Shown piece after piece: positions 22,235-35,432 of a stretch of 64,000 nt of DNA. Under the pieces are notes generated by a model. The model saw only the letters and a list, made by a program, of their open reading frames with translations. It was not told where the DNA came from and searched no databases. Every line of letters begins with the position of its first letter. Position 1 is the first letter of the stretch. A program made the position numbers and the translations under genes. The DNA lies in assembly GCF_009905215.1 (NCBI RefSeq), contig NZ_CP047593.1:2856900-2920899 (forward strand), given 5' to 3'. The DNA comes from Tichowtungia aerotolerans (GTDB lineage Bacteria > Verrucomicrobiota > Kiritimatiellia > Kiritimatiellales > Tichowtungiaceae).

Positions 22235-22384
22235 TTATAGAGTGTCTTTTTCGTCTTCGATCGTTCGGCTATTGGCGGTCTGTTCGCCGATGAAATTGCC
22301 GTGGATAACAGTGATGTCCCGCGCACAGCTCATGAATGCTGCTGTCCGGCAAGGCCCGGTGCATGGAGGCGTTGGTTTTTTCAT
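22235..22384 (-). CDS. Small open frame (49 aa) coupled to cusA
   Basis: The ATG at 22384 overlaps the cusA stop as ATGA, and the frame ends with TAA at 22235, 16 bases before copA. The peptide has three cysteines in its first half (PPCTGPC and MSCARD) and a polar C-terminal tail, with no membrane helix. I do not recognise it. The overlap with cusA and the full use of the gap before copA argue that it may be translated; the short length keeps confidence low. Confidence 0.35.
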   Translation of the reverse strand: MKKPTPPCTGPCRTAAFMSCARDITVIHGNFIGEQTANSRTIEDEKDTL

Positions 22385-25300
22385 CGGGTGCCTTTCTGAT
22401 TTTGTTTCAGCCGGTGTTCCTGGACGGAGCAGTAGAGTATGGGAACGATAAAGATGCTGATGAGGACGACCAGCATGCCGCCGAAGCTCGGAATGGCCAT
22501 CGGAACCATGACGTCGCTTCCGCGCCCGGTTGATGTGAGTACGGGCAGCAGCGCAAGAATGGTGGTGGCTGATGTCATCAGGCAGGGGCGCACGCGGCGC
22601 TGGGCGGCTTCCACAGTGGCATGGCGGATCTCCTCTTTTGTCGAAGGTTTCTCTTCACGGAAAACCTGAGTGAGATAGGTGGACTGAATGACACCGTCAT
22701 CGGTTGCAATACCGAACAGTGCGAGGAATCCGACCCAGACGGCGACGCTCATATTGACGGGGTGTATCTGGAACAGCGTGCGCATCGGGACGCCGAAGAG
22801 GCTGAAGTCCATGAACCATGGCTGCCCATAGAGCCAGACCAGAATGAAGCCGCCGCTCCACGCGACGAAAATGCCGGAGAAGACAATCAGCGTGGTGGAG
22901 ATGGATTTAAACTGGAAGTAGATGATCATGAAAATGGCGAAGAGCGCCAGCGGCAGGACGACCGAGAGCGTTTTGGCGGCGCGGACCTGGTTTTCATAAC
23001 TTCCGGCAAAGGTGTAGCTGACGCCTTTGGGCAGGTTGAATTCTCCGCTGTCGATTTTGCTTTGCAGGTAGGCTTTGCAGTCTTCGACGGTATCGACTTC
23101 GGCTCGGCCGGACTTTTTGTCGAAGACGACGTACCCGGTGAGGAAGGTATCTTCGCTTTTGATGACCTGCGGGCCGCGCACGTATTCAATCTTCGCCAGT
23201 TCGGTGATCGGGATCTGCTGGCCGGTCATGGTCGGAACGAGAATTTTTTCCAGGGTTTGGAAACTGTCGCGCAGTTCGCGCGGATAGCGGACGCGCACCG
23301 GAAAACGTTCGCGGCCTTCGACGGTTTTTGTGATCTGTTTGCCGCCGATGGCGATTTCGATGACGTCCTGGAATTTGCGGATCGGAACGCCGTAGCGCGC
23401 CAGCGCCTGACGGTCGGGAACAATTTCCAGATAGGGCTTGCCGACAATCCGGTCGGCAATCACGGCTGCAGGTTCAACCGACGGAACCTCTTTCAGGAGT
23501 TTTTCAATCTGCAGGCCGACTTCTTCGATGGTTTCCAGGTCGGGACCTTTGATTTTTACACCCATCGGTGCGCGCATGCCGCTCTGGAGCATGACGATGC
23601 GGGCGGCGATCGGCTGGAGTTTGGGCGCAGAGGTGACGCCGGGCAGCTCGGCAGCTTTCACGATTTCATTCCAGATGTCGTCCGGAGAATGAATGTGATC
23701 GCGCCACTGGCGGAACGGGCGTCCACTGGAGTCGGGAATCAGTTCGCCGTTTTCGTCGCGTACAAATTCACCACGTTTATAGCGGAAGTTGATGCGTCGT
23801 CCGTCCTCGTCGGTTTTGTACTCCCGCTTGTAATTGATGACGGTTTCGAACATGGAGATCGGTGCGGGGTCGAGCGGTGTGTCGGCGCGTCCGAGTTTGC
23901 CGACGACGGTGTCGACTTCCGGAACGGACTGGATCAGTCGGTCCTGCACGGAGAGGATGTCGATGGCTTCTCCGATGGAGGCGTGCGTCATCGTGGTCGG
24001 CATCCACAGGAAGGAGCCTTCGTCGAGCGGCGGCATGAATTCCTTGCCAAGCTGCTTCCATGCGCTGAACCCGAAAACAACCAGAGCAACCGGGATGGAC
24101 AGGAACAGCAGTTTGTGGCGCAGGCACCAGTGCAGCATGCGGGTGTAGAAGCTGCGGAACAGGTGGAAGAATCCCAGCAGTCCGCCGGCCAGCAGGGCGA
24201 CAAACAAAGCGTTCAGGATAAATCCTTTTTCCGGGCCGAGCGGTTCCCATGCATTGGTCAGGAAGATTCCAACCAGCAGAACCGCCAGCCAGGTGGGCGC
24301 ATTGGGACCGAGCCGGGAGAACGCAGAAGGCAGTTCCCATTTTCTTTTTCTCTTTTTTCGTTGAAGGAGCAGGTAGGCCGCGGGCGGCAGAATGGACAGC
24401 GCGATGAAAATAGACGAGAGCAGGGCGAAGGTTTTTGTGAACGCGAGCGGCTTAAAGAGTTTGCCTTCCGCACCGATCATGATGAAGACGGGCAGGAAAC
24501 TGATGACGGTGGTCAGCACGGCGGTCAGCACGGCACCGCCGACTTCGCTGACGGCGCGGTGAACGGTTTCGAGGCGCGGTTCTTCGGCCGGTGCCTGATC
24601 AATATGGCGCAGAATGTTTTCGCAGATGACGATGCCCATATCGACGATGGTTCCGATGGCGATGACAATGCCGGATAACGCAACGATGTTGGCCTGCACT
24701 CCGAAGAATTTCATGGCGATGAAGCAGAGCAGGACGGCTAGCGGCAGCATGCCGCTGATGAGGATGCTGCTGCGCAGGTGCATGACCATGACGAGCACGA
24801 CGATGATGGTGATCAGGATTTGCTGACCGATGGCGTCGTTGAGCGTTCCGAGAGTTTCGTAGATGAGGCCGGAGCGGTCGTAGAACGGAACGATTTCAAC
24901 CTGGCTGACCGTGCCGTCGGCAAGTGTTTTGCGGGGAAGCGACGGAGCGATTTCTTTGATCTTTTCTTTGACGCGGTTGATGACGGCGAGCGGGTTGTCG
25001 CCGTAGCGGGCGACGACGACTCCGCCGACGACCGGCGCGCCGCCTTTGTCGAGCGCGCCGCGCCGCGCGGCGGGTCCGGCGGTGACGTGCGCGACCTGTT
25101 TGACGAGCACCGGCACATGATTGTCGCGGACTTTCACGACGCTGTTTTCAATGTCTTCGATCTCTTTGATGAAGCCGATGCCGCGAATGAAATATTCAAC
25201 ACGGTTCATTTCGATCGTTTTTGCGCCGACATCAACATTGGCTGCCTGGACGGCGCGGGCGACGTCGTCGAGCGTGACGCCGTAGGCGCGCATGGCGTCG

Positions 25301-25971
25301 GGATCGACGTCGACCTGATATTCTTTCACGTAGCCGCCGGCAGAGCCCACCTCGGAAACGCCTTCGGCCGAAAGCAGGCTGTAGCGTACATGCCAGTCCT
25401 GAAGTGTCCGCAGCTCCTCCTGGCTCCACCCGCCGGTCGGGTTGCCGTTTTCGTCGCGGCCTTCGAGCGTGTACCAGAAGATCTGGCCGAGTGCGGTGGA
25501 GTCGGGGCCGAGCGCGGGCTGTACGCCGTCGGGCAGGGTGCCTTCAGGCAGACTGTTTAGTTTTTCGAGCACGCGGGTGCGCGCCCAGTAGAAGTCGGCG
25601 TCTTCCTTGAAGATGATGTAGATGGTGGAGAAGCCGAACATGGAATAGCTGCGGACGGTTTTCACGTCCGGAATGCCGAGCAGCGAGACGGTGAGCGGAT
25701 AGCTGATCTGGTCTTCGACGTCCTGCGGCGAGCGGCCCATCCACTGGGTGAAGACAATCTGCTGGTTTTCTCCAATGTCCGGAATGGCGTCGACCGGAAT
25801 GGGGTAGCGTTCAATACCGGCGAGCTGCCAGTCGAACGGTGCAACCAGAATCCCGGTGAAAATGACGGCCAGTGTGCTCAGTGTCACAACCAGACGGTTG
25901 GTCAGGCAGAAGCGCATGAAGCGCCCGACGAGAGATCGCTGTTCTTGGGTCTGTTTCATTTCAGTGCTCAT
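22381..25971 (-). CDS. cusA: Heavy-metal efflux RND transporter (CusA/CzcA family)
   Basis: 1196 residues, longer than the ~1040 typical, with insertions in the second half. The N-terminal helix region contains IPVDAIPDIGENQQIVFTQW, then SYPLTVSLLGIPDVKTVRS. Central helices include GIVIAIGTIVDMGIVICENI, and the late block is GFLALFGIATDDGVIQSTYL. It is the proton-driven inner-membrane pump of a tripartite CusCBA system exporting Cu(I)/Ag(I) from periplasm or cytoplasm. Its first 11 bases overlap the cusB end. A dispersed palindrome at 23247-23263 encodes F-Q-T-L-E-K in the periplasmic domain. Confidence 0.95.
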   Translation of the reverse strand: MSTEMKQTQEQRSLVGRFMRFCLTNRLVVTLSTLAVIFTGILVAPFDWQLAGIERYPIPVDAIPDIGENQQIVFTQWMGRSPQDVEDQISYPLTVSLLGIPDVKTVRSYSMFGFSTIYIIFKEDADFYWARTRVLEKLNSLPEGTLPDGVQPALGPDSTALGQIFWYTLEGRDENGNPTGGWSQEELRTLQDWHVRYSLLSAEGVSEVGSAGGYVKEYQVDVDPDAMRAYGVTLDDVARAVQAANVDVGAKTIEMNRVEYFIRGIGFIKEIEDIENSVVKVRDNHVPVLVKQVAHVTAGPAARRGALDKGGAPVVGGVVVARYGDNPLAVINRVKEKIKEIAPSLPRKTLADGTVSQVEIVPFYDRSGLIYETLGTLNDAIGQQILITIIVVLVMVMHLRSSILISGMLPLAVLLCFIAMKFFGVQANIVALSGIVIAIGTIVDMGIVICENILRHIDQAPAEEPRLETVHRAVSEVGGAVLTAVLTTVISFLPVFIMIGAEGKLFKPLAFTKTFALLSSIFIALSILPPAAYLLLQRKKRKRKWELPSAFSRLGPNAPTWLAVLLVGIFLTNAWEPLGPEKGFILNALFVALLAGGLLGFFHLFRSFYTRMLHWCLRHKLLFLSIPVALVVFGFSAWKQLGKEFMPPLDEGSFLWMPTTMTHASIGEAIDILSVQDRLIQSVPEVDTVVGKLGRADTPLDPAPISMFETVINYKREYKTDEDGRRINFRYKRGEFVRDENGELIPDSSGRPFRQWRDHIHSPDDIWNEIVKAAELPGVTSAPKLQPIAARIVMLQSGMRAPMGVKIKGPDLETIEEVGLQIEKLLKEVPSVEPAAVIADRIVGKPYLEIVPDRQALARYGVPIRKFQDVIEIAIGGKQITKTVEGRERFPVRVRYPRELRDSFQTLEKILVPTMTGQQIPITELAKIEYVRGPQVIKSEDTFLTGYVVFDKKSGRAEVDTVEDCKAYLQSKIDSGEFNLPKGVSYTFAGSYENQVRAAKTLSVVLPLALFAIFMIIYFQFKSISTTLIVFSGIFVAWSGGFILVWLYGQPWFMDFSLFGVPMRTLFQIHPVNMSVAVWVGFLALFGIATDDGVIQSTYLTQVFREEKPSTKEEIRHATVEAAQRRVRPCLMTSATTILALLPVLTSTGRGSDVMVPMAIPSFGGMLVVLISIFIVPILYCSVQEHRLKQNQKGTR
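23247..23263. repeat. Dispersed palindrome, one mismatch
   Basis: TTTCCAGGGTTTGGAAA inside cusA. Confidence 0.75.
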
Positions 25972-27592
25972 GATGATGTTCCAGCATTTCAGGTTCTTCG
26001 CCTGCGGCTTTCATTTTCTCAATGTGTTTTTCGGGGTCTGCGAGAAACTCGGTTTCGCAGCCGGGACAGCAGAAATAGATGCGCATACCGTTGTAGTCGG
26101 CGTAGAAATCCTGATTGATTTTACCTCCCATGACCGGACAGAGCGTCTGAGGATGCGGCTCCGTGGTCATTTCTTTATGCGTGATACTCATCATCGACGG
26201 CTTGGCGTGAATCTGGAGTTCGGCGTCCAGCTTGAACGCGCCCTGCGTGACGACGCGCTCGCCTTCGGTCAGTCCTGCGCGGACGATGAACACGTCGCCG
26301 GCTTTGGGGCCGAGGGTGATTTCGCGGCCTTCGTAGGTCGGTGCTTCCTTGCCGGGGACTTCAATGTAAACCACTGCACGGGTTCCGGTGATCAGCGGCG
26401 CGGTTGCCGGAATGACCAGCGGGGCGGTTGCATCTTCAGTTACATAGCCCAGCTCTTCGGCCGGGACAAGCGGCATGCCGCAGACATCGCAGGAGCCCGG
26501 TTCGTCTTTGATGATTTCCGGGTGCATCGGGCTGATCCATTTGCCGGCCAACGACGGCGCGGCGACGGTGCCGTCTTCGGCGATCAATGGATGAGCGTTT
26601 GCGCGGACAAACATGCCGGGCTTGAGTTTCTGTTGCGGATTATCAACGTTTACCCGCACATTAATTGTGCGCGATGATGCGTTGAGAACGGGATCGATGA
26701 AGGCAATGGTTCCTTCGAAGGTTTCGCCGGGAAGGGCTTCGGCGGTGAAGGTGACTTTCTGTCCGTAGCGCAGCCACGGCAGATCCGATTCGTAGGCTTC
26801 GAGCTGAATCCAGATGCGGGAAAGATCGGCGACGGTATAGAGTGTGTCACCGGTTTTCACATAGCTGCCTTCCAGCGCGTTTTTGTGAATGACAATGCCG
26901 CTGACGGGCGAATAGATGGTCAGGTGATCGACCGTGCTGCCGCGTTTTTCGATTTCCTGAATCTGTTCTTTCGGCAGGCCCCACAGTCGCAGCTTTTCGC
27001 GGACGGCTTCGACGGTGGATTGTGAGACGCTGCGCACGATGTCGCTTCCGCTCTGTTTCAGGGAATCAACCGATCGGATGGCCTGCAGAAGTTCTTCCTG
27101 CGCGCTGAGCAGTTCCGGGCTGTAGATGGACGCGAGGTGATCACCCTTTTTAACCGGGATGCCCGTATAATCGACGAATAGACGGTCGAGTCGTCCCGGC
27201 ATGCGGGAGGTGATGAACGTGGTGCGGGTTTCATCGTAGTCCGCTTTTCCAACCATCCGGACGTCTGCGGCAGCAAACCTGCGTTCGACCGGTACGGTTT
27301 CAATCTGCATCAGCTTTTTAGCGGTTTCGCTGACAGTCAGTTCGCGCGGGCCTTCTTCGCCGCCGCTGCCAAGAGGAATCAGGTCCATGGCGCAGATCGG
27401 GCAGAGTCCCGGCTTGGGGAGTTTAATCTGCGGGTGCATGGAGCAGGTCCAGACCTCCGGTGCGGCTTCCTCTGTGTGTGCGGCCTCATCGTGTTCGGGC
27501 GCGGCGGTGCAGCGGCCAAGCGAAAAGGCGAAGATTAAGATGACCGCTCCGCCGGCCAGTAATTTCCAATATTTGGAAAAATCGGGTTTCAT
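25961..27592 (-). CDS. cusB: Metal efflux periplasmic adaptor with two heavy-metal-binding domains and a YHS domain
   Basis: 543 residues. A membrane anchor (LLAGGAVILIFAFSLGRC) with a possible lipobox Cys is followed by a first heavy-metal-binding domain (WTCSMHPQI...CPICAMDL), the hairpin and barrel-sandwich parts of a membrane-fusion protein (GRLDRLFVDYTG; IYSPVSGIVIHKNALEGSYV), a second metal-binding insert (WISPMHPEI...CDVCGMPL), the remaining beta domains and a C-terminal YHS domain (LCPVMGGKINQDFY...CCPGCETEF), ending in a His-rich EHHHEH. It links CusA to the outer-membrane channel and probably hands over Cu/Ag. Three metal-binding modules in one adaptor is unusual. A perfect dispersed palindrome at 27563-27579 lies in the anchor region (F-S-K-Y-W-K). 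Confidence 0.93.
   Translation of the reverse strand: MKPDFSKYWKLLAGGAVILIFAFSLGRCTAAPEHDEAAHTEEAAPEVWTCSMHPQIKLPKPGLCPICAMDLIPLGSGGEEGPRELTVSETAKKLMQIETVPVERRFAAADVRMVGKADYDETRTTFITSRMPGRLDRLFVDYTGIPVKKGDHLASIYSPELLSAQEELLQAIRSVDSLKQSGSDIVRSVSQSTVEAVREKLRLWGLPKEQIQEIEKRGSTVDHLTIYSPVSGIVIHKNALEGSYVKTGDTLYTVADLSRIWIQLEAYESDLPWLRYGQKVTFTAEALPGETFEGTIAFIDPVLNASSRTINVRVNVDNPQQKLKPGMFVRANAHPLIAEDGTVAAPSLAGKWISPMHPEIIKDEPGSCDVCGMPLVPAEELGYVTEDATAPLVIPATAPLITGTRAVVYIEVPGKEAPTYEGREITLGPKAGDVFIVRAGLTEGERVVTQGAFKLDAELQIHAKPSMMSITHKEMTTEPHPQTLCPVMGGKINQDFYADYNGMRIYFCCPGCETEFLADPEKHIEKMKAAGEEPEMLEHHHEH
27563..27579. repeat. Dispersed palindrome, exact copy (centre TAT)
   Basis: TTTCCAATATTTGGAAA at the start of cusB. 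Confidence 0.88.
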
Positions 27593-27605
27593 GATAGCTC
27601 CTTTG

Positions 27606-28838
27606 TTAAAAATCGTGATTGGTCAGCATTTCAATTTCGGCCAGGCGGATTTCGCGATCGGCCAGAGATCGTTCCGCGGCGAGCTGGAACTCGAGCAGGG
27701 TTCGCTCGGCTTCGAGCAGGGAAATATAACCAAGGCTTCCGGCTTCAAAACTTTCGCGTGCCGATTCCATGGCCTGTTCGGCTTTAGGCAGAAGTGTCTG
27801 CTGATAAAGATCCACTTTGCGTTCGGCGTCGCGGAATTTGTACAACGTCATCTGAAGGTCGGCGGTGAGCTGGTTTTCCTGATCGGTGCGCAGGTTTTCG
27901 GCGGCGATTTTCCGGTGATATGCTTCCTGTTCGCCGGCTTTCAGTTTTCCGAACCAGATCGGCACGTTTATGGAGACGCTTGCCATCAGCGGATCTTTAC
28001 CGCTGTCTGAAACACTGGACATGCGGGCTTCGCCGGTTTGAATGTAGTCCAGTCCAAGCATGATATCGGGGTAACGGGCTTTGCGGGCGAGCGCGGCGTT
28101 TTTCTCTTCCTTGCGGATCACTGCATCGACCCGTTCCAGTGTCGGGCTGGATTCCTTCAGCCATTGAGCGGCTTCATCGTCGGTAAAGGAAACAGAGGTT
28201 TGCTGGATCGGTTCGGGACGGGGCAGGAGTGACGGGTCCGGGCGGTTTAATGCCGCGGACAGTCCTGCGGAAAGCGGTTTCCGAAGATCGTTGAGTGTTT
28301 TGAGTTTGTCTTCGGTTTTTCCCAGTTCAACCTGAAGCTGGATTAACGCGCTTTGCGGCAGCTCGCCGGTCTGGAAACGCGTGCGGGCTACTTCCTCCAT
28401 GTTCTGAAGAAGAATCAGGTGCTGTTGGGTGATTTCGATGGCGCGGTGCAGATAGCTGTATTCATGATAGGCGGATTTAACGCGATAGAACAGATTGAGC
28501 TTTTGCTGTTCGTAGCGCTGGTGTTCCGCCTCGGCGGCTTCCATGGCCATTCCGCCGCGCAGCTTCAGTTTTCCAAACATTGGAAAAACCTGTGCAATGC
28601 CGAAGCGCTGTTCCTGTGGACCGACGCGCGTTTCAACCTGCTCGATGAAATAACTGTAGCTGAAACGCGGGTCGGGCAGGGCTTGAACCTGCGGCACTTT
28701 TTCCAAAGCCGCTTTCCATTGATTGAAAGCGGCTTCGAGGCCCGGATTATTCTGTGCGGCCTCTGTCAGGTAGCTGCCGAGTTCATTGGCCTGAACAGCG
28801 GCGGAGAGCAGAATGATGGTTATGAATGCCTTTTTCAT
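27606..28838 (-). CDS. cusC: TolC-like outer-membrane efflux protein
   Basis: 410 residues. A signal peptide (AFITIILLSAAVQA) precedes two helical repeats with typical outer-membrane efflux patterns (NPGLEAAFNQWKAALEKVPQ; SFEAGSLGYISLLEAERTLLEF). It is the outer-membrane channel of the CusCBA pump and lies 13 bases upstream of cusB. Its start overlaps the stop of the small YHS protein gene by 4 bases. A perfect dispersed palindrome at 28569-28587 encodes V-F-P-M-F-G-K-L. Confidence 0.92.
   Translation of the reverse strand: MKKAFITIILLSAAVQANELGSYLTEAAQNNPGLEAAFNQWKAALEKVPQVQALPDPRFSYSYFIEQVETRVGPQEQRFGIAQVFPMFGKLKLRGGMAMEAAEAEHQRYEQQKLNLFYRVKSAYHEYSYLHRAIEITQQHLILLQNMEEVARTRFQTGELPQSALIQLQVELGKTEDKLKTLNDLRKPLSAGLSAALNRPDPSLLPRPEPIQQTSVSFTDDEAAQWLKESSPTLERVDAVIRKEEKNAALARKARYPDIMLGLDYIQTGEARMSSVSDSGKDPLMASVSINVPIWFGKLKAGEQEAYHRKIAAENLRTDQENQLTADLQMTLYKFRDAERKVDLYQQTLLPKAEQAMESARESFEAGSLGYISLLEAERTLLEFQLAAERSLADREIRLAEIEMLTNHDF
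28569..28587. repeat. Dispersed palindrome, exact copy with 8-bp arms (centre ACA)
   Basis: TTTTCCAAACATTGGAAAA inside cusC. Confidence 0.88.
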
Positions 28839-29077
28839 TTTGCCGGAGTTTTTTCGAGCTCAATACCATCGGCTTGCATTTTTTCTATATACTTTTCCGG
28901 GTTGGCTTTCACGGCTTTAATACATCCTTTGCAGCAGACGTAGATGCGGTACCCGTTTGTATCCGTATACAGTTCTTTGTTGATTTTGCCTCCCATGACC
29001 GGGCAGGTGGTTTGTGGTTCTGCAAACACTGCGGAAGCAGCGGTGATCAGTAATACGGTGAGTATGCTTTTCTTCAT
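28835..29077 (-). CDS. Small periplasmic YHS-domain metal-binding protein
   Basis: 80 residues. The signal peptide ILTVLLITAASAVFA precedes TCPVMGGKINKELYTD and VCCKGCIKAVKANPEKYIEKM, a YHS-type metal site also found at the C-terminus of cusB. It probably binds Cu/Ag in the periplasm or serves as a chaperone for the pump; this is inferred from motif and position. It is the second gene of the csoR-led operon, 15 bases after csoR. Confidence 0.85.
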   Translation of the reverse strand: MKKSILTVLLITAASAVFAEPQTTCPVMGGKINKELYTDTNGYRIYVCCKGCIKAVKANPEKYIEKMQADGIELEKTPAK

Positions 29078-29092
29078 GGGTTTCTCCTTCGG

Positions 29093-29377
29093 TTAATATT
29101 GTTTTTTCATGACGCGCAGCAGCTCGGCCATTTTTTCATCGGCCTCTTCCTTGGAGCCGGACGCAAAGGCTTCGCTGACGCAGTGGTTCATGTGTTTCTG
29201 AAGAATCTGCAGTTCGACGGACCGGAGGGCGGAGCGGGCGGCCTGAATCTGGCGGATAATGTCGATGCAGTATTTCTGCTCTTCCACCATTCGCTTAACG
29301 CCCTGAACCTGTCCGGCAATCCGCGACAGCCGATGCAGCGTTTCTTCATGTGTCGTTGGTGTTTCTGTTGTTTTCAT
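29093..29377 (-). CDS. csoR: CsoR-family copper-sensing repressor
   Basis: 94 residues from ATG 29377, which directly follows AAGGAGGTC; an in-frame ATG at 29434 lies upstream of the operator and is rejected. The family pattern is RLSRIAGQVQGVKRMVEEQKYCIDIIRQI with the metal-binding Cys, then His and Cys in KHMNHCV. Such repressors leave DNA when Cu(I) binds. It heads the minus-strand csoR-YHS-cusCBA-copA cluster, and the operator-like palindrome lies just upstream of its ribosome site. Confidence 0.93.
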   Translation of the reverse strand: MKTTETPTTHEETLHRLSRIAGQVQGVKRMVEEQKYCIDIIRQIQAARSALRSVELQILQKHMNHCVSEAFASGSKEEADEKMAELLRVMKKQY

Positions 29378-29387
29378 GACCTCCTTG

Positions 29388-29406
29388 TATACCCTTGGGG
29401 GGTATA
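29388..29406. promoter_or_regulatory. Likely CsoR operator
   Basis: TATACCCTTGGGGGGTATA: perfect 7-bp arms TATACCC/GGGTATA with a 5-base G-rich centre, the usual form of CsoR sites. It lies 10 bases upstream of the csoR start codon. Confidence 0.88.
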
Positions 29407-29507
29407 TTGCAACAAAAGAAATCGGAATAGTCACATTTTCTGTTTTTCGGAGCTGCCGAACGAATTTTCATGACGGCGTTTCACGGTTGGTTTAGTCTGT
29501 TGGGCTT

Positions 29508-30407
29508 ATGAAAGTTGAGAACGAACGATTGAATAAGGTAGCGGTTCTGAAAGGCGGAATTTCGGCAGAGCGCGAGGTGTCGCTGGAGTCCGGGGCGGCG
29601 ATTGCGGCCGGGTTGCGAGGGGCCGGTTATGACGTGACCGAGGTCGATGTTCAGAATCGGGATTTTTCGGTGCCGGATGGGGTGGAAGCGGTTTTTATTG
29701 CATTGCACGGCACGTTCGGTGAGGACGGCGGGGCACAGGCCCGGCTGGAAGAGCTCGGGATTTCCTATGTCGGTGCCGGTGTGGAGGCCAGTCGGATTGC
29801 TTTCGATAAGCTTTTGACCGAACAGGTTTTGAAACAGCTCGAAGTTCCGGTTCCCGGAAGCGAAGTGCTGCGGGCCGGTCAGGCGCGTACGCTGCCGCTT
29901 CCGGTAGCGGTTAAGCCGCCGCGCGAGGGGTCGAGTGTCGGCTGTCATCTGGTGTTTGAAGAGAAGGAGTGGAATGACGCGGTTTCTGAGGCGCTGACGC
30001 ACGATGAAGAGGTGCTCGTTCAGCAGTTTATTCCGGGCCGCGAGTTCACGGTCGGTATTGTGGACCGCGAGGTGCTGCCGGTGGTTGAGATTGTCCCTGA
30101 AAAAGGTTGGTATGATTACGCCGCCAAATACAAAGAAGACACGACGCGTTATGTGGTTCCCGCCGAGCTGGGTTCCGAAAAAACAGCAGAAATGCAGGCG
30201 ATTGCCCTGAAAACCTTTGACGCTCTCGGCGCGCGCGGGTTTGGGCGGGTCGATTTTCGGATGACGCCGGAAGGGGAGCTGTTTGTGCTCGAACTCAATA
30301 CAATTCCCGGTTTTACCTCGCACAGTCTGCTTCCCAAGGCGGCCCAAGCGGCCGGAATCGAGTTTCCTGCTCTTTGCAGTCGCATCATGCAGACAGCTTG
30401 TTTATAA
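29508..30407 (+). CDS. ddl: D-alanine--D-alanine ligase
   Basis: 299 residues. ATP-grasp features include LKGGISAEREVSLESG, ALHGTFGEDG, PLPVAVKPPREGSSVG, GREFTVGIVD and the metal/ATP block GRVDFRMTPEGELFVLELNTIPGFTSHS. It joins two D-alanines for peptidoglycan precursors. It starts the ddl-ftsQ-ftsA-ftsZ cluster; murB and murC, often upstream in dcw clusters, are absent here, and the divergent neighbour is the copper operon. Confidence 0.97.
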   Translation: MKVENERLNKVAVLKGGISAEREVSLESGAAIAAGLRGAGYDVTEVDVQNRDFSVPDGVEAVFIALHGTFGEDGGAQARLEELGISYVGAGVEASRIAFDKLLTEQVLKQLEVPVPGSEVLRAGQARTLPLPVAVKPPREGSSVGCHLVFEEKEWNDAVSEALTHDEEVLVQQFIPGREFTVGIVDREVLPVVEIVPEKGWYDYAAKYKEDTTRYVVPAELGSEKTAEMQAIALKTFDALGARGFGRVDFRMTPEGELFVLELNTIPGFTSHSLLPKAAQAAGIEFPALCSRIMQTACL

Positions 30408-30443: not shown

Positions 30444-31256
30444 ATGGCGGCTGCAAAACCCAGAAAACGCAAGCAGTATGCGAGAACGAAATCGACGAAG
30501 AAGGACGCCTCGGCGCGTCGCGGCGTGCTTGTTTTTATCGGTTTAGCCCTGAGTGCTGTTCTGTTGTTTGCAGTGTATCAGCTGCTGGCGTATTCTCTGT
30601 CGTTTTTCTTTTCCCGCAATGATGCGTTTGAGCTGAAAAATATTGTGGTTACTTCGGACGGGCGGCTTTCGTCTTCCCAGCTGAAGGAATATGCGAATTT
30701 AACACCGGGGATCAATCTGTTTGATGTGAAGTTTGACGACTTGCGGGAGGACCTGACGTCGGTTCCTCTGGTGGAGTCGGTTCATATTCAGCGCCGGTTG
30801 CCGGATACATTGCTGGTGCGTGTCAGTGAGCGGGTGGCTCTGGCTCAGGTGCATTGGAAGTGGCGGGCGGTACCTTTTCTTGTGGACAGGCATGGCGTGG
30901 TGATGCCGGCGACGCGCACGGGGCGGGCTTTACCAATGATTGAGGGGCTGAAAGTCGAAAACCTTCGGCCCGGCGAGCGGATCACCAATGAAGGGGTGCT
31001 GTTCGCTCTGAAACTGCTGTCAACCTGCACTGAAATGCGGCTTTCAACCCGAATCAGGTTCGAGCGGTTTGACCTGCGTTATCCGGATTACATCACGGCC
31101 ACGCTTGCCGATGGTATCTCGGTCCGTTTCCCGCGCCATTCGGCCCGCGAAAAAATGATTCGTCTTGCCCGTGTAATGGAACTCGCTCTGGAGCAGGGCC
31201 GACGTCTCAAAACGATCGATCTGACCCCGGACGGCCTGAACGTTCCCACCACCTGA
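30444..31256 (+). CDS. ftsQ: Cell division protein FtsQ
   Basis: 270 residues. A basic cytoplasmic N-terminus (RKRKQYARTKSTKK), one membrane helix (GVLVFIGLALSAVLLFAVYQLLAY), a POTRA domain (FELKNIVVTSDG...GINLFDVKFDDLREDLTSVPLVESVHIQRRLPDTLLVRVSER) and a beta domain are arranged as in FtsQ/DivIB. It links early and late divisome proteins in the periplasm. It sits between ddl and ftsA, with ribosome site GGAGGAAA upstream. Confidence 0.93.
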   Translation: MAAAKPRKRKQYARTKSTKKDASARRGVLVFIGLALSAVLLFAVYQLLAYSLSFFFSRNDAFELKNIVVTSDGRLSSSQLKEYANLTPGINLFDVKFDDLREDLTSVPLVESVHIQRRLPDTLLVRVSERVALAQVHWKWRAVPFLVDRHGVVMPATRTGRALPMIEGLKVENLRPGERITNEGVLFALKLLSTCTEMRLSTRIRFERFDLRYPDYITATLADGISVRFPRHSAREKMIRLARVMELALEQGRRLKTIDLTPDGLNVPTT

Positions 31257-31275: not shown

Positions 31276-32505
31276 ATGGCTGCACCCCTGATTACTGCTC
31301 TGGAAATAGGAACGACAACCGTCAAAGTATTGATGGCTGAAGTCCGTGAAGACGGAGGCCTGATGGTTTCCGGCGTTGGCGAAAGCGAATCGCGCGGTGT
31401 TCATAAAGGCGAAATTATCGATTTTGAACTGGCGCTTGGTTCCGTGCGCCGCGCCATGGAAACGGCAGAGGGCAGTGCGCGTCGCACCATCGGGGAAAGT
31501 CTCTATTTAACCGCATCCGGCGGGCAGGCTGCCAGCCTGCTTCACCAGGCGGGCATTCCGGTTCTGAATGAATATGAAGAACCCGGGGGGGAAGTGACCC
31601 AAGAGGATATTGAGCACGTGCTGGAAGTGGCCCGCAAGGTACCGATTCCCGACGACCGGATTCGGCTGCACACGCTGCAGCAAACCTTTGAGGTCGACGG
31701 ACGGGGCGGAATCAGCAATCCGGCAGGACTTTTGGCCCACGATATGAAGGTGGGCATGCTGCTGATTCATGGGCGTCGCTCGACTGTTGAAAACCTCAAG
31801 AAAATTCTGCAGGCCGTTCCGGTTCACTGTGAAGATGCCGCATTTTCCGGGTTCTGCTCGGCGCTGGCTGTGTTGACGCCGGAGCAGAAACGGGCCGGAG
31901 CCGTTGTGATTGACCTGGGCGGCGGCACCACCGACTTTGCGGTGTACAACGCCGGAACCGTGAGGCTGGCCGGATCCATTGCGGTCGGCGGAAGTCATGT
32001 GACTGAAGATATTTGCACTGGACTCAATATTAACCGCCGACAGGCCGAAGCACTTAAAAAAGCCTCCGGCAGCGCGATTATCAATGCCATGGATGGCGAG
32101 CAGAGCTTTTCGGTTCCGGCTGAAGGCGGATTCAGCGGACGGGTGGTTCGCTCTGTGACGCTGCACACAATTATTAATGCCCGTATGGAAGAAACATTCC
32201 GGCTGATTGCGGACCAGATTGAGGCTGCCGGACTGAGCGGCGTGCTCAGCGCCGGTGTTCTTTTAACAGGCGGCGGTTCCGCGCTGGAGGGCGCCGTGGA
32301 TTTGGCTCAACAGGTTTTCAATGCGCCCGCTCAGATTGGCAAGATGGCTGACTGTGTCGGCATCTCCACTAAAAAAGAGGGGGCCCGCTTTGCGTCAGCG
32401 CTTGGAGCGGTTCGTTATGCCGCGGATCAAATGGTGAAGGAGCCGGAAGATACCACGCCGCTGCGCGGCTGGTTCTCCAAATTGTGGGGAGGTTCCCGTG
32501 GTTGA
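31276..32505 (+). CDS. ftsA: Cell division protein FtsA
   Basis: 409 residues, actin-like ATPase. It shows TALEIGTTTVKVLMAEV (phosphate 1), the 1C-type domain with SLYLTASG...DIEHVLEVARKVPIPDD, phosphate 2 VIDLGGGTTDFAVYNAG, and GVLLTGGGSALEGAVDLA. The C-terminal RGWFSKLWGGSRG is short and amphipathic, as expected for the membrane-targeting sequence that tethers FtsZ. It overlaps the ftsZ start by 8 bases. Confidence 0.95.
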   Translation: MAAPLITALEIGTTTVKVLMAEVREDGGLMVSGVGESESRGVHKGEIIDFELALGSVRRAMETAEGSARRTIGESLYLTASGGQAASLLHQAGIPVLNEYEEPGGEVTQEDIEHVLEVARKVPIPDDRIRLHTLQQTFEVDGRGGISNPAGLLAHDMKVGMLLIHGRRSTVENLKKILQAVPVHCEDAAFSGFCSALAVLTPEQKRAGAVVIDLGGGTTDFAVYNAGTVRLAGSIAVGGSHVTEDICTGLNINRRQAEALKKASGSAIINAMDGEQSFSVPAEGGFSGRVVRSVTLHTIINARMEETFRLIADQIEAAGLSGVLSAGVLLTGGGSALEGAVDLAQQVFNAPAQIGKMADCVGISTKKEGARFASALGAVRYAADQMVKEPEDTTPLRGWFSKLWGGSRG

Positions 32506-33604
32506 TGGTGCAAAACGGATTTTGGTTCTGGGATTGGGTGGTGCCGGATGCTCGATTGTGTCGCGGATTGCTCCGCGCGCGCCGAAAGGAATGGAATTCG
32601 CGGTCATGGATTGCGATTCCCAAACCCTGAAAAAATGCTCGCTCATTGAAAACCGCCTCAATGCCGGAAAAAGCGTGACCGACGGATTGAGTTCCGGCGG
32701 GGATATGGATACGGGGCGGCGTTGTGCGGAAAAAACGGTGAAACCGTTTGAGGCGATGATCAGTGGGGTCGACCTGTTGCTGGTGATCGTGGGACTTGGC
32801 GGCGGCTTCGGTGGCGGAGCATCGTCCGTAATTGCCCGGATTGCGCGGAACGTCGGTGCGCATACAATCTTTTTTACGGTGTTCCCTTTTAAATTTGAAG
32901 GCGGTGTGATCCGCGGAAAAGCCCACAATGGACTTCGTCGCCTGCGCGCGTATGCGGATGCAATTATTCAGATGTCCAACAGCCGTCTTCAGCCGGAAGG
33001 TGACGCACTGCTTCAGGAAAGCATGGAGAACGCCGATCGGACTTTTGCCGCCGGTGTGGTCGGTCTGTGGCGTCTTCTGACGCAGACCGGTGGTGTCTGT
33101 AATCTGGATTTTGCTACGCTGCACACCATGCTTCGTAATTGTGATGCAACCTGCCGTTTTTCCTGTGCTTCAGCAACCGGAGAAAACCGGGCGGATGATG
33201 TCATTCAGGCGCTGTTCGATCATCCGCTGGCCGAAAACGGATCGGTGTTTAAGGATGCGCCCGGGCTGATTGTCGGGATTACCGGCGGCGATGACCTGCG
33301 GCTTTCCGAGGTTCGGAAAATCCTCGAAAGCGTGCGGCCGGACAATGACGAGAGCTGGGTGCGCATGGGAATTGCCACCGACACAGCTTTTTCCAATCGG
33401 ATTTCGGTGCTGGTTCTCGCCGCTGAGGAGTGGAAAGATCCGCTGGTGGATGATAATCAGAACATGATCAGCGGTCAGGCGGAACTGAGCAGCGTACTTC
33501 GCCCGCGCTCCAGAGCATTCGGCGGTGCCGAGCGAACCATCTGGAATGGCGAAGACCTCGACGTGCCGACCTACCTGCGCCGGAAGATTAAACTGCCGCG
33601 TTAA
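32498..33604 (+). CDS. ftsZ: Divergent FtsZ with altered nucleotide-binding and catalytic motifs
   Basis: 368 residues from GTG 32498, with GGGGAGG upstream. The N-terminal ILVLGLGGAGCSIV and overall order match FtsZ, and the C-terminal D-V-P-T-Y-L-R-R resembles the conserved tail that binds FtsA. The tubulin signature, normally GGGTGTG, here reads GGGFGGG (residues 101-107). The T7 loop, normally NxDFAD, reads NLDFAT (202-207), so the Asp matching E. coli D212 is Thr. Both sites matter for GTP binding and hydrolysis. Its place after ftsA says it is the division FtsZ of this locus; whether another FtsZ exists elsewhere is unknown. A very degenerate palindrome (three mismatches) lies at 32618-32632. 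Confidence 0.88.
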   Translation: MVDGAKRILVLGLGGAGCSIVSRIAPRAPKGMEFAVMDCDSQTLKKCSLIENRLNAGKSVTDGLSSGGDMDTGRRCAEKTVKPFEAMISGVDLLLVIVGLGGGFGGGASSVIARIARNVGAHTIFFTVFPFKFEGGVIRGKAHNGLRRLRAYADAIIQMSNSRLQPEGDALLQESMENADRTFAAGVVGLWRLLTQTGGVCNLDFATLHTMLRNCDATCRFSCASATGENRADDVIQALFDHPLAENGSVFKDAPGLIVGITGGDDLRLSEVRKILESVRPDNDESWVRMGIATDTAFSNRISVLVLAAEEWKDPLVDDNQNMISGQAELSSVLRPRSRAFGGAERTIWNGEDLDVPTYLRRKIKLPR

Positions 33605-34272: not shown

Positions 34273-35178
34273 CTAAAATACGGCTTCTAATAGTTGCTGT
34301 GTTCTCTGGGTTCCCTCCCTCCTCCGGAGGAGGGAGGGAAGCGCGGACGCCTCCATCCACGCACCTATATATTCCGTCGGAGTCTTGTTATCAAGCGACT
34401 TATGCGGTCGCTGCTCATTGTAATCTTTTTTCCATGCTGCGAGTTTATCACGGGCATCGTCCACTCCGAAGAAAAGCTCCACATTCAAACATTCATCCCT
34501 CAACTTTCCGTTGAAGCTTTCGATGTATCCATTTTCGGTCGGCTTACCCGGTCGGATAAACTCCATGGCGACCTCATGATGATATGTCCAGGCATCCATC
34601 GACCTGGAGTAAAACTCGCTTCCGTTGTCCACACGAATGCTTTTGGGATAACCGCGTTGATTAGCCACTCCGTTCAGACAAGACGCGACCTTTTCACCGG
34701 TGATGGATCGGTCAGCATATAGCGCCAGGCATTCCCGACTAAAGTTATCGACTACCGTCAGTATCCTGAAGTGACGCCCGTCCTCGGTGCGATCCATCAC
34801 AAAGTCCATACTCCATTGCTCGTTGGGCCCGGCAGCCTGCTCAAGAGGAACACGAGGCCGGTTCGCCAACTTTTTACGGGGTTTCGTGCGAACGGCAAGG
34901 TTTTCCTCCATGTAGACCCGATAGACTCTTTTGTGATTAATCTCCCATCCTTCCCGGCGCAACAGAACATGAATGCGCCGGTAACCGAACCGGACACGTT
35001 TAGCGGCCAGTTCCTTAATCCGCAGACGAAGCGCCTCATCGTCCCGAGGCTTCGCTTTGTAGAAAAAGGTGGTCCGGCTTAACTCAAAAAGCCCGCACGC
35101 CCGGCGGCCCGAGAGTCCGTATGCATCACATGCCCCCTCGGCCAGTTCGCGCTTCCGTGCAGGCTTCAGAGCTTTTTT
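34273..35178 (-). CDS. IS3-family transposase OrfB
   Basis: The frame continues without interruption from 35178 to a stop at 34273 (about 301 residues), although the first ATG is only at 34962. This fits production by -1 frameshifting from orfA at the slippery A6G run (35172-35178 on the minus strand). The rve integrase core has the DDE triad in [17 protein letters not shown] and [16 protein letters not shown], and the N-terminal HTH_21-like part contains [16 protein letters not shown]. The element may still be active because both frames are intact. Confidence 0.9.
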
Positions 35179-35432
35179 GCAATGACCTCCTGCAAGATGT
35201 GCTTGTCCAGACTCAGGTCGGCTACGAGCTGCTTCAACTTGCGGTTTTCATCACGTAACATGCGTAACTCCCGCACCTCGCTTACTCCAAGCCCCTTGTA
35301 CTTCTTGCGCCAGTTGTAAAACGTGGCCTCACTGACTCCCATCGACCGGCATAGTTCGGCTATCTTCTCGCCGTTCTCCGCCTGCTTCAGGGCATATACG
35401 ATCTGTTCCTCTGTGTATCTCTTCCGCTTCAT
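35166..35432 (-). CDS. IS3-family transposase OrfA (helix-turn-helix)
   Basis: 88 residues. [19 protein letters not shown] and the helix-turn-helix [17 protein letters not shown] are followed by a leucine-zipper-like [21 protein letters not shown]. It binds the IS ends and supplies the N-terminus of the OrfAB fusion. It overlaps orfB by 13 bases at the A6G slippery site. Confidence 0.92.

Follow-up and report, generated by a model that had tools for sequence, protein, structure and literature searches.

The window analyzed here is a stretch of 64,000 nucleotides (G+C 53.8%) from the complete, single-contig genome of Tichowtungia aerotolerans, whose strain S-5007 has 3.88 Mb and 53.1% G+C (PMC10880615). 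At its center lies a dcw cluster of the order ddl-ftsQ-ftsA-ftsZ, with ftsZ adjoining ftsA (Table 1), as a previous sequence-only reading of this DNA had stated for the last two genes. The GTG start of ftsZ overlaps the stop of ftsA by 8 bases, and a ribosome-binding-type sequence, GGGGAGG, stands 5 bases upstream of it. Ahead of the cluster, on the opposite strand, the ORF list, read by eye, shows an apparent operon for a heavy-metal RND efflux system (CusA/CzcA-like), which includes a membrane fusion protein, an outer-membrane factor and a CsoR-like regulator; just downstream of ftsZ lies an IS3-type transposase-like pair with ORFs of 229 and 88 aa.

Table 1. Features of the ftsZ locus and of related loci (plain numbers are window positions; other coordinates are genome:contig:positions)
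Feature	Position	Strand	Details and basis
RND efflux operon	22381..29434	-	by eye, ORF list
ddl (D-Ala-D-Ala ligase)	29508..30407	+	PF07478 187 bits
ftsQ	30444..31256	+	POTRA_1 and FtsQ_DivIB_C above cut-off
ftsA, 409 aa	31276..32505	+	TIGR01174 295 bits, cut-off 176
ftsZ, 368 aa, GTG start	32498..33604	+	ORF translation; Pfam/NCBIfam; AF2; PDB fold matches
Tubulin signature (T4) loop GGGFGGG, residues 101-107	32798..32818	+	F104 for E. coli T108, G106 for T110
Retained T5-loop residue E134 (E138 in E. coli), which contacts the ribose	32897..32899	+	alignment
I138, replacing the arginine finger (R142 in E. coli, R143 in S. aureus)	32909..32911	+	ungapped alignment from E134
T7 loop N202-L-D204-F-A-T207	33101..33118	+	N207 and D209 equivalents kept; T207 for D212
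Conserved C-terminal peptide, FtsA/ZipA-binding type: EDLDVPTYLRRKIKLPR / LDVPTYLRRKIKL	33548..33601	+	class-wide conservation
IS3-type transposase-like pair	34273..35432	-	ORF list
Second tubulin-superfamily gene	G000:C1:1429886-1430980		window genome (G000); FtsZ and RepX/TubZ profiles match it weakly
Two-gene unit with second tubulin	G000:C1:1429547-1430983 (L002:1156-2595)		window genome, chromosomal
Short FtsZ-like ORFs, family f59	L285 (G202:C1:2954127-2954987); also G251:C18, G253:C41, G270:C16, G274:C83, G301:C40, G342:C63
ftsZ in two overlapping frames	L128/L019 (G141:C1:425846-426948)		single-contig relative; 123 and 284 aa
ftsZ-family matches, each interrupted by a single in-frame stop	G020:C4:138914-140071; G039:C30:2697-3845		TGA, TAG; draft genomes

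The ftsZ product is an orthologue of FtsZ. Both of its domains score above the Pfam cut-offs (PF00091 Tubulin, 92 bits, cut-off 33; PF12327 FtsZ_C, 40 bits, cut-off 27), its AlphaFold2 (AF2) model has a pLDDT of 90.6, and the top PDB fold matches of this model are all FtsZ (Foldseek E 2.5e-32), even as it shows only about 29% identity to E. coli FtsZ over the core (86/295). Its best NCBIfam family is TIGR00065, with 185 bits and hence below the curated cut-off of 295.2, which is a score threshold and not a biological feature; we take the shortfall to reflect clade divergence, because the same cut-off is out of reach even for members of the class that have both T7 acids (L047, 283; L190, 260). 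The C-terminal tail, E-D-L-D-V-P-T-Y-L-R-R-K-I-K-L-P-R, contains DVPTYLR, in keeping with the D-V-P-x-Y-L-R tail of the sequence-only reading. In comparison with its nearest relative, L004, the protein is 74% identical, with dN 0.18, dS 1.29 and dN/dS about 0.14, and is under purifying selection. FtsZ diverges faster than FtsA, which is 83% identical between the same two organisms, and this could also be read as relaxed constraint.

In place of the tubulin signature GGGTG[ST]G the protein reads GGGFGGG, and its T7 loop reads NLDFAT, with T207 at the position of the catalytic Asp (D212); both motifs are found in the translation exactly as had been claimed. Two features that had been passed over complete the picture: the arginine finger R142 is lost to isoleucine, and only one of the two T7 aspartates is replaced, the equivalent of D209 being retained as D204. 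In E. coli numbers, D45, Q47, G71, E138, N165, N207 and D209 are kept, and N24S, N43D, T108F, T110G, R142I and D212T are altered; this leaves D38 in place of N43, R139 adjoining the lost R142, and a polar residue, T207, in the T7 loop. Given that E134, N161 and D40 are retained, the protein probably keeps its ability to bind GTP.

Structures and mutants help in reading these replacements. In filament structures of S. aureus FtsZ, D210 (D209 in E. coli) swings and places the attacking water, D213 (D212) together with G72 forms the environment of this water, and R143 (R142) acts like an arginine finger; the D213N and R143Q mutants show no assembly (PMC8936486). In E. coli, D212G has less than 1% of the GTPase, yet forms rings, which are static (PMC7320174); D212A has 7%, as cited in PMC8142252; and T108A combines low GTPase with retained ring assembly (PMC8175707). 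Most of the GTPase is thus lost when E. coli or S. aureus FtsZ is mutated at T108, R142 or D212 (PMC8175707, PMC7320174, PMC8142252, PMC8936486). The window protein has replacements at all three, and we judge poor hydrolysis, with slow-turnover filaments, to be the likeliest consequence, so that the earlier proposal is partly supported. Assembly of the window FtsZ would need compensation, because D213N and R143Q block it in S. aureus, and a scan of the alignment columns singled out no compensating residue above the background of relatedness. We found no biochemistry on one-acid or window-type FtsZs in the open literature.

To place these changes we aligned, besides E. coli FtsZ, 288 sequences: 129 from the window's class, 55 of Verrucomicrobiae type and 24 of Lentisphaeria type (labels that our analysis assigned from taxonomy handles), 44 other PVC sequences from a scan of named genomes, selected for their similarity to the query and possibly overlapping in species with the other sets, and 36 from more than a dozen non-PVC phyla. 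E138 is invariant in all 288. T108 is replaced in 23 of the 129 class sequences and 3 of the 24 of Lentisphaeria type, and in 0 of the 135 others (non-PVC, Verrucomicrobiae-type and other PVC), Phe being found only in the window's genus (6/6 sampled) and in one Lentisphaeria-type sequence. The alignment with PVC relatives, proposed along with the sequence-only reading, also disposes of sequencing error: L004 shares both GGGFGGG and NLDFAT, all six sampled members of the genus have GGGFG, and the low dN/dS noted above points the same way.

The T7 loop was found to have a far wider history, contrary to its earlier framing as a local oddity. Acids are present at both 209 and 212 in all 36 non-PVC FtsZs, whereas 189 of the 251 scored PVC FtsZs have exactly one of these two acids, which are generally regarded as indispensable for catalysis (119 with D209 only, 70 with D212 only; 59 have both and 3 neither). 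By family majority, 21 families have both, 28 the first only, 15 the second only and 1 neither. The window FtsZ and Opitutaceae-like families have lost D212, and the Akkermansia- and Verrucomicrobium-like families have lost D209, with loops such as VGLDDL. On an FtsZ gene tree built with the T7 columns masked, parsimony places about 12 losses at site 209 and 9 at site 212; all of the latter occurred where 209 was present and 10 of the 12 former where 212 was present, with the state lacking both occupying 3.9 of about 152 branch-length units. Dependent evolution of D209 and D212 is preferred over independence (LR 17.8, 4 df, p about 0.001), and the control pairs R142-D212 (LR 2.9) and N207-D212 (LR 5.8) are not significant. 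A raw association between the losses of R142 and D212 (p 0.009) vanishes on the tree, and we reject their coupling. By tip counting, the rarity of the state lacking both acids is not significant against independent simulation, a fraction of 0.075 being as low. Hence, the rule that the two acids are lost reciprocally is well supported by the aligned sequences but not proven, because it rests on an FtsZ gene tree, on PVC rows in part drawn by similarity, and on a less sure alignment of the most divergent T7 loops. In Verrucomicrobiota, single T7-acid loss is ancient and has recurred, and T108F is the newest step, taken in the window's genus.

Such one-acid loops are compatible with FtsZ-dependent division, because ftsZ is essential in Verrucomicrobium spinosum by transposon sequencing (PMC12283558) and the V. 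spinosum-type families are one-acid; in the sister family, binary fission is the mode of division of Pontiella agarivorans (PMC10880615). That many Verrucomicrobiota divide with such proteins would be expected if other residues, for instance D38, R139 or T207, restored the active site and with it ordinary GTPase activity and treadmilling. D212 is indeed lost in 65 of the 96 sequences whose residue at N43 is acidic, versus 55 of the 153 in which it is not, as this explanation would have it. Nevertheless, we consider it unlikely: the association of N43D with D212 loss is no stronger than the background of relatedness, and neither is that of any other candidate residue, the scan of all columns being swamped by relatedness, with D209 the leading column in its association with the state of D212. 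Moreover, R139 is not common to the genus (Q in L005, L006 and L008), and the known single mutants at these sites are all defective.

The genome encodes one FtsZ and one weak tubulin-like protein; the search for a second canonical ftsZ, also proposed earlier, found none in this complete, single-contig genome. FtsZ family members were recovered from 138-139 of the 146 genomes of the class, nearly always as a single copy. One MreB and two FtsW/RodA proteins are present, and ESCRT-III was not detected, there being no PF03357 match in a search of limited sensitivity in which one control matched weakly. The second tubulin (366 aa, GGGTGNG) is preceded by a gene for a small protein of ~112 aa, possibly DNA-binding, and from its sequence the chromosomal two-gene unit looks like a TubR-TubZ pair. 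No curated family claims this tubulin. It is found in 31 of the 289 genomes of the phylum, namely in ten Lentisphaeria-type families, the window genome and one further genome (G120), with 75% identity to the G120 copy and 48-57% to the Lentisphaeria-type homologues, and the same small gene precedes every copy checked.

Side by side with these, several relatives have unusual ftsZ genes. In the Lentisphaeria-type family f59, FtsZ-like ORFs of 247-342 aa have matches confined to the N-terminal GTPase part, the C-terminal LD[IV]PTF tail or both, the T7 loop and C-terminal domain being unmatched; all these genomes have the second tubulin. In a further relative (G141) ftsZ lies in two overlapping frames, from a frameshift that is either real or an assembly error, and ftsZ-family matches in two draft genomes have one in-frame stop each.

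The degenerate signature and T7 loops, along with the second tubulin-like gene, might be taken to mean that the window FtsZ is vestigial and non-polymerizing, with division carried out by another polymer, a case that has been made for Nitrosopumilus maritimus, which has Cdv (PMC3684127). This we regard as highly improbable, given the full-length fold and tail under purifying selection, the retained dcw order and the failure of a search of limited sensitivity to detect ESCRT-III. The second tubulin is likewise rejected as a replacement polymer, for it is missing from the five other genomes of the genus, all of which have T108F. Accordingly, where slow-turnover filaments or another polymer had been offered as choices, the former is the likeliest and the latter finds no support.

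Taken together, we posit, as somewhat more probable than its rivals combined, that the protein is the genuine and sole division FtsZ, which assembles and slowly hydrolyzes GTP on a single carboxylate. It would bind GTP, form FtsA-anchored filaments and scaffold septal wall synthesis. At the interface site, one T7 carboxylate, D204, would place the catalytic water, while the loss of D212, the arginine finger and T108 would make hydrolysis slow, and filament turnover would be slow in consequence.

An improbable but more radical proposal is that the protein binds GTP in order to assemble but hydrolyzes essentially none of it, the filaments being cleared by other factors or by dilution. A parallel is found in tubulin, whose alpha-beta site is non-hydrolyzing, with beta-tubulin having a Lys at the corresponding T7 position. 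The joint loss of three catalytic positions is consistent with such a scaffold, as are the rings of D212G, which alone suffices to abolish nearly all GTPase (PMC7320174). Conversely, because D209 is retained and the loss of both acids is rare, some hydrolysis appears to have been selected for, which favors slow hydrolysis on one carboxylate over none.

Whether FtsZ hydrolysis and treadmilling are required for division or only tune it has long been debated, and the debate has been fought with crippled mutants. Here, a natural FtsZ has three catalytic positions replaced, and its host has probably been cultivated, which therefore makes the protein open to test. Around it, the phylum that includes Akkermansia and Verrucomicrobium offers naturally occurring active sites in graded steps, with two acids, the first only, the second only and almost never neither, and the reciprocal loss amounts to a testable chemical rule, that one carboxylate from either position is enough. 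It is tempting to speculate, if only tentatively, that the phylum divides with mostly one-carboxylate FtsZs, either position sufficing, and that the FtsZ of the window's genus has little or no GTP hydrolysis, in which case cytokinesis would not need hydrolysis-driven treadmilling. These bacteria could thus show the extent to which division depends on GTP breakdown.

FtsZ itself is well known, and the divergence of V. spinosum FtsZ, with its GGGTGSG, was reported in 2007 (PMC1845146); a text search of that paper turned up nothing on the T7 acids, and we found no open-literature paper on T7-acid loss in Verrucomicrobiota FtsZ or on its reciprocal pattern. With the canonical bacterial FtsZs of E. 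coli, B. subtilis and S. aureus, the window protein has in common the fold, the dcw locus by ftsA, the N- and C-terminal domains, the equivalents of E138, N165, N207 and D209, and the FtsA-binding tail; it differs from them in the replacement of T108, T110, R142 and D212 and in falling below the NCBIfam cut-off. The FtsZ of Nitrosopumilus maritimus similarly lacks the GGGTGTG motif and the NVDFAD loop, but it is non-polymerizing and coexists with Cdv (PMC3684127), whereas no Cdv-type protein was detected in the window genome. The V. spinosum- and Opitutaceae-type FtsZs resemble the window protein in their one-acid T7 loops; unlike it, they keep GGGTG and R142. Finally, the E. coli mutants D212G, D212A and T108A, with their poor hydrolysis and turnover, are altered at the same positions, but the window FtsZ carries its changes naturally and all together, fixed in the sole copy of the gene.
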